Source: a virus
Virus record (IMG/VR): IMGVR_UViG_3300005295_000004
Coordinates: 1 to 51,510 of that record
Length of the DNA: 51,510 bases
Direction: 5' to 3' (one strand)
In this document: positions 2,237 through 6,567 of the stretch, in pieces
Layout: every line of letters begins with the position of its first letter
Position numbering within the stretch: the first letter of the stretch is position 1
Program-made: the position numbers and the translations under genes
Notes under the pieces: generated by a model
The model's input: the letters and a program-made list of their open reading frames with translations, nothing else
What the model was told of the DNA's origin: nothing
Database searches by the model: none

Positions 2237-2759
2237 CGCGCAAAAGCAGAAAGCCTATCGAATGCGGCGTAAGGCTGATGTCGAAAAGTATGCTGCGTAT
2301 TTAGAAGCTCGCAAGCCTTCACATCGAGAATGGACACGAAGAAAACGCGCGCAGCTTAAAAAAGATCAACCTAAAAAATGGTCTAAATTATTAGCTGCGC
2401 GCAGATTACAGGCTAAACAAAAACATCGAGCGGACCCACGACACGCATTACTGCATTGGGCTCGTAAACGTGCGCGAGATAAAAATATAATTTGTACGCT
2501 AACGCTCGCAGACATTGTTGTTCCTAAGCGTTGCCCTGCTCTTGGAATTGTTTTGAAAATTGGTGATGGCAAGCTACACGCAGCATCACCGACGTTAGAT
2601 AGGCGCAACCCAAAGAAAGGTTATACGCCTAACAATATTGCAGTCATTTCGCATAGAGCGAATGCAATTAAAACTGATGCAACGATTAAAGAAATTTTGG
2701 CCGTTGCTGCTTGGCTTCAAACCGTCACACCATCACCACGAAAGGTATTCAACCGATGA
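2223..2759 (+). CDS. HNH/treble-clef-like phage endonuclease
   Basis: About 178 aa from a GTG start at 2223, chosen because AAGG lies 6 nt upstream and the product then begins PLSNAQKQKAYRMRRK, a common start in this group. The N-terminal half is strongly basic and helical (DNA binding). The C-terminal part has LTLADIV, CPALGIVL, SPTLDRRNPKKGYTPNNI and AVISHRANAIKTDAT, characteristic of a phage endonuclease family related to HNH/recombination endonuclease VII folds. Few of the usual zinc cysteines are present. It overlaps both neighbours (ATGA with the SSB gene). Confidence 0.78.
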   Translation: MPLSNAQKQKAYRMRRKADVEKYAAYLEARKPSHREWTRRKRAQLKKDQPKKWSKLLAARRLQAKQKHRADPRHALLHWARKRARDKNIICTLTLADIVVPKRCPALGIVLKIGDGKLHAASPTLDRRNPKKGYTPNNIAVISHRANAIKTDATIKEILAVAAWLQTVTPSPRKVFNR

Positions 2760-3856
2760 ACGCACCCGCCACACAACCCAACACTATTTTGTTCCCGCCC
2801 GGTCGCATCGTTCAGGGCGATCTATACAACGGCCAAGACAAAGACCAAGCCGGCAACCCGCTAACTGTTAAGACTGGTGCCAACGCCGGCAAAGCAACTG
2901 TGCGCTACTTCTTCGCCGTTGCGATTCCGAAGACGCAACAGAATTGGTGGCACGAAGTGTGGGGGCAAAAGATTTTCGCTATTGCTGCCGCTGCATGGCC
3001 CCAAGGTCAAACAGCAAACCCAAACTTTGCATGGAAGATTGAAGACGGCGACAGCCAAATACCCAACCAGAACGGCCGCAAGAATGCTGACCGCGAAGGG
3101 CACGCACGTTGCTGGATTATTAAATTTAGCTCGTCATTCCCTGCGAAGGTATTCGACGCGCAAAGCAACCCGCTTGTGCAACCCGGTCTTGTGAAACCCG
3201 GCTTTTGGGTTGAAGTGCTCGGCACGGTTGAAGGCAACGGCCAACCACAAAAACCCGGTGTGTACATGAATCACAACATGGTTGCATTCCGCGCGCCTGA
3301 CAAGGAAATCGTGAGCGGTCCCGATCCGCGTTCGGTCGGCTTTGGTCAGGCAGCATTGCCGGCCGGCGTCAGCGCCGCCCCGATGCCTAGCATGGCACCC
3401 GGCGCACCAATGCCCGGCGCAGCGGCTCCGGGTGCCATGTACCCGCCTGCAGCAGCACCCGGCGCGTACCCACCGTCAGCGGCCGCCCCAGCGCCTGCAG
3501 CAGCGTACCCAACACCGGGCGCAGCACCTGCCGCCTATCCAACGCCCGGCGCAATGCCCGGCCCTGTGGCGACGCCTGCGGCCGTTCCGGGTGCATACCC
3601 AGCCCCGGGCGCAATGCCTGTGTCTGTAGCGCCCAATCCATCGTTTATTGCACCGCCCGGCGCGGCACCGGCACCAATGGCAGCCCCAGCGGCACCGATG
3701 GCCCCTGCGCCCGCTCCGGCGGTCGCTGCTGACCCATTGGGTGCACCGGCTGGCTTCCGTATGGCAAACCCACAGGGTGCGAACTACACGGCCCACCTGC
3801 AACAAGGTTGGAACAATGAAACCTTGCTTGCCGCCGGTCACATGGTGCGCCTTTGA
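2756..3856 (+). CDS. ssb: T7 gp2.5-like (DUF2815-type) single-stranded DNA-binding protein, zero-frame product
   Basis: 366 aa in the zero frame. The N-terminal ~190 residues (GRIVQGDLYNGQDKD, VRYFFAVAIPK, FAWKIEDGDSQIPNQNGRK, HARCWIIKFSSSFPAKVFD, GFWVEVLGTVEGN) match the phage OB-fold SSB family usually encoded between DUF2800 and the polymerase. Residues ~205-330 are a low-complexity Ala/Pro/Gly linker, typical before an SSB acidic tip, yet the zero frame ends HMVRL without one. The +1 frame supplies such a tip immediately downstream (see 3855-3950). The ATG at 2756 has GAAAGG upstream and overlaps the endonuclease stop. Confidence 0.85.
   Translation: MNAPATQPNTILFPPGRIVQGDLYNGQDKDQAGNPLTVKTGANAGKATVRYFFAVAIPKTQQNWWHEVWGQKIFAIAAAAWPQGQTANPNFAWKIEDGDSQIPNQNGRKNADREGHARCWIIKFSSSFPAKVFDAQSNPLVQPGLVKPGFWVEVLGTVEGNGQPQKPGVYMNHNMVAFRAPDKEIVSGPDPRSVGFGQAALPAGVSAAPMPSMAPGAPMPGAAAPGAMYPPAAAPGAYPPSAAAPAPAAAYPTPGAAPAAYPTPGAMPGPVATPAAVPGAYPAPGAMPVSVAPNPSFIAPPGAAPAPMAAPAAPMAPAPAPAVAADPLGAPAGFRMANPQGANYTAHLQQGWNNETLLAAGHMVRL
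3845..3856 (+). promoter_or_regulatory. candidate programmed +1 frameshift site (CTT TGA, prfB-like)
   Basis: The SSB zero frame ends GTG CGC CTT TGA. CTT followed by in-frame TGA is the slip site of bacterial prfB, where peptidyl-tRNA-Leu moves from CUU to UUU. GGTG lies 3 nt before CTT, the same spacing as the prfB internal Shine-Dalgarno, though the pairing is weak (4 bases). A +1 shift enters an open frame that ends in an SSB-type acidic tip. The base after TGA is G, not the C of prfB. Confidence 0.65.
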
Positions 3857-3950
3857 GCGAATCGTAAACGGTAGGTTGCCGGGGTCGATGTACCCCGGCG
3901 CGATGTACCCTTACGACCCGCAATTTTCTGATGATGAAATACCGTTCTAA
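3855..3950 (+). CDS. +1-frame extension of SSB carrying acidic C-terminal tip
   Basis: Reading on from a +1 shift at 3851-3856 adds 31 residues: ERIVNGRLPG, then SMYPGAMYPYDPQFSDDEIPF-like sequence ending at TAA 3948-3950. The last residues DDEIPF closely match the conserved C-terminal peptide of bacterial SSB (DDDIPF) that recruits replication and repair partners. The GAMYP segments echo the zero-frame linker (GAMYPPAAAPGAYPP), which supports one continuous protein of 397 aa. It could instead be a natural frameshift mutation or a sequencing error, but the exact CTT-TGA context argues for programming. Confidence 0.65.
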   Translation, partial: ERIVNGRLPGSMYPGAMYPYDPQFSDDEIPF

Positions 3951-3960
3951 CTGAGTCCCG

Positions 3961-4012
3961 CCCCGCTGTTGTAAACGCGCTATGCCTGTGCACGGGAAGC
4001 CCAACAGCGGGG
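3961..4012. repeat. 11-bp perfect inverted repeat upstream of the exonuclease gene
   Basis: CCCCGCTGTTG at 3961-3971 pairs with CAACAGCGGGG at 4002-4012 across a 30-nt loop. It occupies most of the 81-nt gap between the frameshifted SSB end and the next ATG (4032, with GAGGG upstream). There is no T-run, so it is not a simple terminator. It could be an RNA structure setting polymerase operon expression or an mRNA-processing site. Confidence 0.7.
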
Positions 4013-4031: not shown

Positions 4032-4514
4032 ATGATTGAATACGCACGTGCCGGCACTCAGTATCGCGCCGGCATCGGCCTCGCGACTGTGCTTCCCGAT
4101 TTTGACTTCGAGACGTACAGCGAAGCGGGCCTAACGTGGAATTCAGAGTTGCAGAAGTGGGGCTCACTGCCGGGCCTATCCGATCAAAACCGAGGCTTGA
4201 AAGCTGTGGGCACTCGCAACTATGTTGAGCATCACAGCTTTGAAGTCTTGTCACTCGCTTACAACTTGAAAGATGGCAACGGCGTGCAATGGTGGCGGCC
4301 CGATCCTTACACGCCATACAAGCAATATCCGCGTTATATGCCGGGCTCGCGTGATGTAATGCACCCGTGGCCGTTGCTCGAACACATTGCATCAGCTCAA
4401 CCGCTTGAAGCACACAACGTAAATTTTGAATGGGTCGTGTGGAATGTTCATTGCGTGCCGGTGTTAGGTTGGCCGCCATTCCATTGCGACGAACAAGGGT
4501 TGCCGCCACTATGA
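4032..4514 (+). CDS. family A DNA polymerase, N-terminal 3'-5' exonuclease fragment (Exo I and Exo II)
   Basis: A 160-aa protein containing DFDFETYS (Exo I, Dx(E) with D25/E27) and LEAHNVNFEW near residue 125 (Exo II, Nx2FE). It ends WPPF plus ten residues. In related phage polymerases the GWPPL segment is followed directly by a CSxAKARAxxxPGSL helix. Here that helix begins a separate protein at 4705. So this is the front of a polymerase exonuclease domain encoded as its own polypeptide. Exo III lies on the downstream protein, so an active exonuclease would need the two to assemble. RBS GAGGG precedes the ATG and the stop overlaps the next start (ATGA). Confidence 0.85.
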   Translation: MIEYARAGTQYRAGIGLATVLPDFDFETYSEAGLTWNSELQKWGSLPGLSDQNRGLKAVGTRNYVEHHSFEVLSLAYNLKDGNGVQWWRPDPYTPYKQYPRYMPGSRDVMHPWPLLEHIASAQPLEAHNVNFEWVVWNVHCVPVLGWPPFHCDEQGLPPL

Positions 4515-4708
4515 ACGAAGAAGTACGCAACGGCATCGTGCATAAATTCGTTCTACAGCGCGACGGCGAACCGATCAACATACAAGTTACAGTCGATATG
4601 CGCGATATCTTGCTGTTGTTCACTCGGTTGGCGCTGCGCAATAAATCGAAGCGCACAAAGTTCGCCAATGGTTGCATTGAATTAAAAATAATCGAGCCTA
4701 AAAAATGA
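4511..4708 (+). CDS. 65-aa protein inserted between the two polymerase fragments
   Basis: From ATG 4511 this encodes 65 residues (MNEEVRNGIVHKFVLQRDGE..., ending IELKIIEPKK). Its start overlaps the exonuclease stop and its stop overlaps the polymerase start, both by ATGA, so three cistrons are chained. The sequence looks like a genuine small alpha/beta protein with a basic middle (RLALRNKSKRTK). No family recognised. The insert is too short for a typical homing-endonuclease intron and is in a different frame from both neighbours. It may bridge the two polymerase parts or be an unrelated insertion. Confidence 0.7.
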   Translation: MNEEVRNGIVHKFVLQRDGEPINIQVTVDMRDILLLFTRLALRNKSKRTKFANGCIELKIIEPKK

Positions 4709-6567
4709 GTGACCAAGCACATTGCAGCGCCGCGAAGGCCCGCGCATCTGCGTACCCGGGCTCACTGGCTGAACTTGGCGCAGTGTTGAATCTAACGCAG
4801 CAAAAGGATAAAGCCGGCGGCGATTTAATTCGCAAGCTGACGATGCCTAAAAAGCCCACGAAAGCAAACCAGTCATTGCGCTGGACGCCGTTCACCGCCG
4901 CTGACGACTTCGTCAGGTTCTACGAATACAACAAGCAAGACATTGTCACCGAAGCACATGCAAGCGCTCGGGTTCCTGATTTAACCCCACGGGAACACGA
5001 CATCTGGAAGTTAGATTTGCGTATTAACATGCGCGGCATGCAAGTAGACCGCGCGGCAGTAGAAGACTGCATCGTTATCATTGAACAAGCCGAGTTGCGC
5101 TACAACGGTGAACTACGCGAGATAACAAACGGCGTAGTGCAGAAGTCAACCGAAGTTGCAAAAATGCTTGAATGGATGCGCACGCAAGGTGTGTACCTTT
5201 ACGAACTTGACGAAGACACACTTGCGGACGCATTGAAGCGAACCGATTACCCACGCGCAGTGTTGCGCGTGCTGCGCATTCGGCAAATCCTCGCCTTTGG
5301 TAGTTGTAAGAAGTATTACGCGTTTCGCGCGCAGACGAGCGCCAGCGGTCGCCTATACGATCAATACACCTACTACGGCGCTCACACATCGCTATGGAAT
5401 GGTCGCGGCGTACAACCTGCCAATCTCTACAAGGGGGTGTTCTCAAAACCCGAGCAAGTAGAACACGCGCTGTCAATTATCAAATGCCGATCGATTGAAT
5501 TGTTAGAGCTGGAATACGGCGAGGGTTCAGCGTGGGCATTGGACCCAAAGAACAACGGCGCACTTGATGCGCTTGAAGTCGTCGCCAGTTGTTTGCGTTC
5601 AATGATCATTGCAAAGCAAGGGCACCGTTTGCTGTCTGCCGACTTCACAGCAATACAAGCTGTTGCAACATCATGCATGGCTAACGAGCAATGGCGCATT
5701 GATGTGTTCAGAGGTCACGGCAAAATCTACGAAGCGCAAGCATCAGCGTTAACAGGTAAGCCGCTACAAGCGTATCTCGATTTTAAAAAACAATACGGCA
5801 AACACCACGACGACCGACAGCTAGGCAAGCTCGCAATCTTGTCCGGAGATTTCGGCGCATGGGTGAACGGCTGGAAACGTTTCGGCGCTGATGAAATCAT
5901 GGGCAGTGACGAAGCAATTAAACAGTTGATATTGAAGACGCGCGACGCCATGCCCAACATCGTTAATTTTTGGGGCGGTCAAACGGTCAACAAATTTAAG
6001 CACGACGAACAGCAACTGTTGTATGGGCTTGAAGGCGCGGCAGTCTCTGCAATCCTGCAACCCGGTGATTGCTTCAGTTCTCGCCCGGGCTCACGTCTTG
6101 GTGTGTTGTACCAAATGCACGAGGATGTTTTATATTGCCGGCCACCTTCGGGGGGCTTCATTCGCTACCACGCGCCACGCTTGCAGCCATCATCACGACC
6201 TTACGCAAGCCCGTGGGAGTATGAAATCTCTTACGAAGGCAACAACAGCAACGCAACGAAGGGAAAAATAGGTTGGGTGCGAATGTCGCTTTATGGTGGC
6301 GTTCAAACACAGAACGTCATCAGTCATATGTGTAGAGAGATTCAAGCAGACGCGTTATACAGACTTGAGCGCAACGGCTACCCGATTGTGATGCACACCC
6401 ACGATGAAGGTGTAGCAGAAGTCCCGAACGGTTACGGCAGCATTCCCGGTTACATGGAGTGCGTGCGCCAGTTGCCGGCATGGGCTGTATGCGAAGATGG
6501 TCAGCCGTGGCCTATCAAGGTGCCTGACGCGTGGGAAGCACAACGCTACGGCAAATGGGAAGATTAA
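4705..6567 (+). CDS. family A DNA polymerase, Exo III plus polymerase domain fragment
   Basis: A 620-aa protein beginning MSDQAHCSAAKARASAYPGS, the sequence that normally follows the Exo II region in one-piece phage polymerases. It has Exo III (Y75NKQD79), motif A (SAD313FTAIQAV), motif B (R371QLGK375LAILSGDF383G) and motif C (MHTHD567E568G). The catalytic aspartates D313 and D567 and motif B Arg/Lys are present. Two positions are unusual: the motif A glutamate that normally follows Ile is Gln318, and the motif B tyrosine is Phe383. The start overlaps the 65-aa gene (ATGA). It is the last gene of the replication operon and is followed by a terminator. Confidence 0.92.
   Translation: MSDQAHCSAAKARASAYPGSLAELGAVLNLTQQKDKAGGDLIRKLTMPKKPTKANQSLRWTPFTAADDFVRFYEYNKQDIVTEAHASARVPDLTPREHDIWKLDLRINMRGMQVDRAAVEDCIVIIEQAELRYNGELREITNGVVQKSTEVAKMLEWMRTQGVYLYELDEDTLADALKRTDYPRAVLRVLRIRQILAFGSCKKYYAFRAQTSASGRLYDQYTYYGAHTSLWNGRGVQPANLYKGVFSKPEQVEHALSIIKCRSIELLELEYGEGSAWALDPKNNGALDALEVVASCLRSMIIAKQGHRLLSADFTAIQAVATSCMANEQWRIDVFRGHGKIYEAQASALTGKPLQAYLDFKKQYGKHHDDRQLGKLAILSGDFGAWVNGWKRFGADEIMGSDEAIKQLILKTRDAMPNIVNFWGGQTVNKFKHDEQQLLYGLEGAAVSAILQPGDCFSSRPGSRLGVLYQMHEDVLYCRPPSGGFIRYHAPRLQPSSRPYASPWEYEISYEGNNSNATKGKIGWVRMSLYGGVQTQNVISHMCREIQADALYRLERNGYPIVMHTHDEGVAEVPNGYGSIPGYMECVRQLPAWAVCEDGQPWPIKVPDAWEAQRYGKWED

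Follow-up and report, generated by a model that had tools for sequence, protein, structure and literature searches.

The gene for the single-stranded DNA-binding protein (SSB) in the 51,510-nucleotide stretch of viral DNA analysed here (the window, IMG/VR record IMGVR_UViG_3300005295_000004) ends on a TGA stop codon, and an acidic tip resembling that of bacterial SSB is encoded behind that stop in the +1 reading frame. Many host repair and replication proteins dock on the bacterial version of this peptide, DDDIPF. The locus raises the question of whether one gene supplies an SSB both with and without an interaction tip. Based on the sequence comparisons described below, a programmed +1 ribosomal frameshift most likely makes two forms of the phage SSB from this one gene (probability of about 0.86).

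The SSB gene and its two reading frames

The zero-frame product was matched by PHROG 7011 in a sequence profile search (E = 1e-59), and a Pfam search gave no match. An AlphaFold model of residues 1 to 215 (pLDDT 87) matched the SSB of phage Enc34 (5odl; E = 4e-10), a DUF2815 protein of E. faecalis (4klk) and T7 gp2.5 (1je5; E = 3e-6). By profile and predicted fold, the protein is a gp2.5/DUF2815-type OB-fold phage SSB, which bears out the initial annotation. A DUF2800 exonuclease and an endonuclease gene lie upstream, and a family A DNA polymerase lies downstream. The 51.5-kb record also contains a tail sheath gene, and the virus is therefore a myovirus. The polymerase is split in the window (4032-6567) into an exo part (4032-4514), a small open reading frame (about 4511-4708) and a main part (4705-6567), which are connected by ATGA overlaps. 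At the same break L001 has about 740 nt, the polymerase is continuous in L101, L102, L004 and L103, and an Rfam intron search at the break gave no match.

No acidic C-terminal tail is present in the zero frame, which ends GHMVRL directly before the TGA; the tail lies in +1 behind this stop (Table 1). The upstream GGTG is separated from CTT by 3 nt (CGC), and the +1 frame from position 3855 reads ERIVNGRLPGSMYPGAMYPYDPQFSDDEIPF up to its own stop, so that a shifted product would have 366 + 31 = 397 residues. In the -1 frame a stop follows after 4 codons, and ribosomes reading through the TGA in the zero frame would meet another within 6 codons. The positions of the CTT TGA ending, of GGTG and of the 31-codon tail to DDEIPF were all confirmed as first described.

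Table 1. Features of the SSB gene ending in the window and of the corresponding tails in Rhizobium phages
Feature	Position	Strand	Basis
Zero-frame gp2.5/DUF2815-like ssDNA-binding protein, 366 aa (ATG at 2756, 366 codons, last codon CTT 3851-3853, stop TGA 3854-3856)	2756..3856	+	PHROG 7011 and AlphaFold model
Internal Shine-Dalgarno-like GGTG	3844..3847	+	GGTGA in 8/10 clade members
Slip site CTT and stop TGA; putative +1 re-pairing CUU to UUU	3851..3856	+	CTT in 10/10 clade genes
+1-frame tail, 31 aa, ending SDDEIPF (stop TAA 3948-3950)	3855..3950	+	Tips in relatives and third-position bias
Hairpin GCCGGGG/CCCCGGC within the tail	3878..3899	+	z -3.5 for the tail region
Acidic tip DDEIPF, resembling the bacterial SSB C-terminal peptide DDDIPF	3930..3947	+	Sequence
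Rhizobium phage SSB +1 tails, CxxC...CxxC and DDDIPF	L342:2440-2553; L343:2137-2245

Conservation of the ending and selection on the +1 frame

Scans of IMG/VR with the SSB protein, an SSB alignment, the C-terminal motif and a DNA pattern retrieved nine more distinct genes that end in this way (L025, L001, L003, L004, L022, L024/L106, L032/L101, L102 and L105), which form clade 1 together with the window gene. CTT stood directly 5' of the zero-frame stop in all ten. The +1 frames were open for 17 to 32 codons and ended without exception in IPF or IPY, the acidic residues before this ending giving DDDIPF in most relatives, DDEIPF in the window, and DDPIPF and DADIPY as variants. Linkers varied in length and sequence, and the tail always stayed in the +1 frame. 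The stop codon was TGA in seven genes, TAG in two (L032 and L102) and TAA in one (L105), and the first +1 residue changed among E, D, S and N with the zero-frame stop always kept. What is required is thus a stop, not a particular one. Conservation of CTT-TGA and the tail, which had been proposed as a check, was therefore found for CTT and the +1 tail in 10/10 genes and not for TGA, which is replaced in three.

CTT and GTG are both invariant at the site across the clade despite accounting for 19% of Leu codons in the window's genes and 36% of Val codons in the window, respectively. The tailless outgroup (L108-L111) encodes the same GHMV residues with GTT or GTC, as opposed to GTG in 10/10 clade members, and we count this as support for GTG having been retained for its Shine-Dalgarno (SD)-like GGTG(A). 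No in-frame tail occurred in any homologue examined, and the break recurs in ten genes and is therefore not a base-calling error; two of the objections raised in the initial annotation are thereby removed. The combination of CTT, a stop and a tip-bearing +1 tail is common to distantly related phages and so looks like a deliberate two-form design. Judged from these alignments, the hidden SSB tip behind CTT-stop is not an accident.

No relatives were found among genome contigs or plasmids, and known phages gave no near DNA match. Two IMG/VR pattern scans for CTTTGA followed by DDIPF in +1 returned at least 217 matches; beyond clade 1, none among the matches listed had a long zero frame ending at the site, the true frame in those listed being that of the tip. 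In L024/L106, the clade-1 ending, CTT TGA included, is joined to an OB domain that clusters with the tailless L062/L070 (100/97), so the C-terminal ending may be exchanged as a module.

The pattern of substitutions in the tails points to translation in the +1 frame. All five differences between the L025 and L001 tails fell at +1 third positions and were synonymous, with at most 1/5 in the other frames. Between L003 and L001, 16/24 differing codons were synonymous in +1, compared with 2/23 and 2/24 in the other frames. Over three independent clade pairs, +1 third positions held 23 of the 38 tail differences (p = 5e-4). This concentration demonstrates, at the level of nucleotide substitutions, coding selection on the +1 tail, which is therefore taken to be translated. 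A tip motif occurred within about 160 nt in 0.42% of random frames, which is an upper bound because the control includes real tips.

Hidden tips in other SSB groups

Among 78 distinct gp2.5-like genes, a tip followed the stop in 21 and was missing in 57. Twenty of the 21 tips were in the +1 frame, one (L076) was located behind an in-frame TAG, and none was in the zero frame. As tailless relatives are common, neither the tip nor a zero-frame acidic tail is required for the gp2.5/DUF2815-like family. A single origin of the tip was rejected on the OB-domain tree (p-AU 1.7e-9), on which at least 4 to 5 changes are needed. None of the database records examined carried a frameshift annotation.

A second group accounts for 11/20 of the +1-tip genes (twelve with the fragment L087) and consists mostly of cultured phages, including Salmonella phages 9NA and Sasha, E. 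coli phage Bas82, Klebsiella phages BU9, e270.1 and Carvaje, Proteus phages RS10pmA and 2207-N35, Morganella phage Henu15 and Flyfo Tbat2_2, as well as IMG contigs. Its zero frame ends FL.GNG(Q)Y(A), and its +1 tails include DSYWNWDDIPL, DITNWDNIPL, DWDDIPLI and NEWDDIPLF. Within the tip, most change was synonymous when read in +1, and synonymous change in the zero frame continued up to the stop. The codon before the stop was TAC, TAT or GCA, not CTT; SSB groups other than clade 1 use TAA or TGA freely. Near the zero-frame stop (L018, L080, L081, L016 and L093), GGTAACGG and TTTCT are invariant upstream of the stop in this group, and most members have an Asn codon before the tip in +1. Two other routes were considered for this group, a UUU_C slip within the invariant TTT CTN and a hop from Asn to Asn; both appear less likely, as the zero-frame synonymous changes up to the stop favor a shift near the stop.

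The third group consists of Rhizobium phages RHph_X2_24 and P106B, in which CGA TAA is followed by NRAV..CVKCG....GRP..NGLCF.CE.DDDIPF, a four-cysteine motif joined to the tip. Third positions accounted for 20 of the 31 differences between the two (p = 4e-4). The tail lies inside a long hairpin that begins 2 nt past the stop and has been retained although the sequence has changed. P106B (L343) has an annotated tRNA-Leu gene at 1099-1174, directly upstream of the SSB gene. By normal rules, UAC, UAU, GCA and CGA cannot re-pair in +1, and the mechanism may thus differ in the 9NA and Rhizobium groups. That two more SSB groups repeat the design, with +1 tails under selection, nevertheless counts for programmed recoding. 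In the distant gp2.5-like singleton L076, PTSGFNDLDDEIPF directly follows the in-frame TAG (3919-3966), and stop-codon readthrough giving the same tip is possible there.

Proposed recoding mechanism, alternatives and possible role of the tip

The ending had initially been described as prfB-like. This holds for the slip tetramer CTT-T before the stop; an SD-like element also lies just upstream, but as a stimulator it agrees only loosely. In prfB, the SD-like sequence approaches AGGGGG 3 nt 5' of CTTT (PMC12421855), whereas GGTG(A) occupies another register, pairing 2 nt further from CUU in our own alignment to the anti-SD. The predicted anti-SD duplex was -5.2 kcal/mol in the window and L003 and -7.4 in the eight other clade genes, compared with -10.7 kcal/mol in E. 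coli prfB. In the tailless outgroup the corresponding duplex was -2.7 to -4.2 kcal/mol; within the window SSB gene, -5 is attained at 15% of same-phase positions. As the duplex is weak and lies 2 nt off the prfB register, and spacing is important in prfB, the strength of the stimulator is uncertain and frameshifting in the clade could be of low efficiency; in B. subtilis prfB, 52.7% has been reported (PMC12421855). The two systems also differ in that the prfB shift occurs early in its gene and autoregulates release factor 2 (RF2), whereas the shift here lies at the end of an SSB gene. Strong tail hairpins were predicted in the window, L025, L001, L004, L032 and L105. A downstream hairpin was rejected as a universal stimulator; strong in these genes and in both Rhizobium phages, it is missing in L003, L022 and L024. 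Decoding of CUUU as a four-base codon by a phage tRNA was likewise rejected, as the window contains no tRNA gene.

In E. coli systems, +1 shifting has been described at CUU placed before UGA, UAA or UAG (PMC6321510, PMC12421855), and in vitro without RF2, CUU before UAA or UAG also shifts to +1, with stimulation by an upstream SD duplex (PMC6321510). The putative clade-1 recoding mechanism is of a known kind; according to PRFect, every CUU-stop case in the RECODE set is prfB.

The initial annotation had further suggested that the phage may sense RF2 levels. Low RF2 would then raise frameshifting and report host termination capacity as in prfB. CTT TGA in 7/10 genes, with the TGAC context of prfB in L022 and L024, is compatible with such a switch. 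However, the prfB stop is RF2-readable in 100% of the genomes surveyed (PMC12421855), unlike that of the SSB clade, in which the tail is still under selection behind CTT TAG and CTT TAA. TAG is read by RF1 only, and so RF2 sensing is not the conserved function; the free use of TAA or TGA in other SSB groups adds to this, and we consider the idea unlikely. Even less probable is a restart after the stop that yields the tip as a separate small peptide unfused to SSB. ATG, GTG or TTG codons do occur in some tails (the window, L004 and L024, with GTG in X2_24), yet there are none in the +1 tails of L032, L102, P106B and the 9NA-type phages. L032 and L102 therefore do not make the tip by restarting at an ordinary start codon, and it is hard to see what purpose a free tip of 20 residues would serve.

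It appears highly improbable that the tail is what remains of an ancestral in-frame tail after decay, or that it is noise downstream of the gene. A single old indel would shift a tail out of frame, and tips are missing from many relatives, but the synonymous bias in +1, seen in three separate groups, is strong evidence that the tail is neither decayed nor random, and the tip is kept through changes in linker length behind an invariant CTT and stop. Fusion of the frames by transcriptional slippage or an overlooked sequencing error would also yield the long product; the site has no homopolymer longer than three, however, and the break recurs in ten genes that come from separate assemblies and differ in their codons, leaving this the least credible explanation of all. 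Overall, clade conservation and coding selection support the original proposal that a +1 frameshift at CTT-stop would add a bacterial-type tip and give two SSB forms.

Under programmed frameshifting, ribosomes, probably most of them, would end at the zero-frame stop and release tip-less SSB. With the stop in the A site and CUU in the P site, some peptidyl-tRNA-Leu would slip from CUU to UUU, and +1 translation would then add a short variable linker and an acidic tip copying the bacterial SSB C terminus. Any stop codon would work as the pause, so the frameshift would set a ratio and would not act as an RF2 sensor. The bacterial DDDIPF peptide is a docking site for many host repair and replication proteins (PMC5872125), and tipped SSB could recruit these or the phage's own replication proteins. 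Removal of the acidic tail from Enc34 SSB left ssDNA binding unchanged and allowed dsDNA to be bound as well (PMC5686142), and the tail of T7 gp2.5 competes with ssDNA for the binding surface, according to work cited in PMC5686142. Tip-less SSB would accordingly coat ssDNA free of a tail competing for the DNA site, while a set tipped fraction could recruit partners without occupying the DNA site on every subunit. We infer both frameshifting as the route to the tail and partner binding by the tipped form.

A broader reading, to which we give even odds, is that several separate phage SSB lineages each hid a host-mimicking tip behind a recoded stop, by +1 shifting in three groups and in one by readthrough of TAG. 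The reason would be that tipped protein is needed as a set minority, sufficient to engage host SSB partners yet too scarce to impair ssDNA binding. On this view recoding is a general dosing device for an interaction peptide on a replication protein, and at least one of the +1 mechanisms, that with the stop after UAC, UAU, GCA or CGA, would fall outside the known P-site slippage rules.

Recoding in phage structural genes (lambda G/GT, the +1 shifts in the coat and tail genes of Listeria phage PSA, T7/T3 gene 10) similarly gives a minor, C-terminally extended product in a set ratio, with direction and signal varying between lineages. The known cases are virion or tail-assembly proteins (PMC5009743), in contrast to a replication protein that would gain a host-type interaction peptide, and SSB is not mentioned in the 300,000 characters searched of this large 2016 frameshifting review. 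Enc34 SSB and T7 gp2.5 share the OB-fold family and an acidic C-terminal tail with the window SSB; their tails are in frame (PMC5686142), whereas the window tip is separated from the gene by a stop and is closer in type to bacterial DDDIPF. The SSBs of bacteria likewise carry a terminal DDDIPF-type peptide on a variable linker, but the phage tip is placed on a gp2.5-like fold and would be reached only via recoding. In agreement with the initial annotation, which knew of no such phage SSB, no description was found in open-access literature on SSB, C-terminal tip, phage and frameshift, on DUF2815 and frameshift, or on 9NA, SSB and frameshift; as only open-access sources were covered, one may exist elsewhere.

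In tailed phages, the programmed frameshifts known so far are those of head and tail genes. Here, frameshifting appears to control a replication protein, adding a peptide that copies the host hub for assembling DNA repair and replication proteins. If this is true, a single gene can yield both an SSB that has an autoinhibitory, partner-binding tail and one that lacks it, and many annotated phage SSBs are truncated in databases, including those of cultured 9NA and of Bas82 from the BASEL collection. The 9NA and Rhizobium groups would additionally represent +1 shifting at a stop without the usual slippery codon. Annotations have overlooked this arrangement, and the two-form design can be tested directly in laboratory phages.
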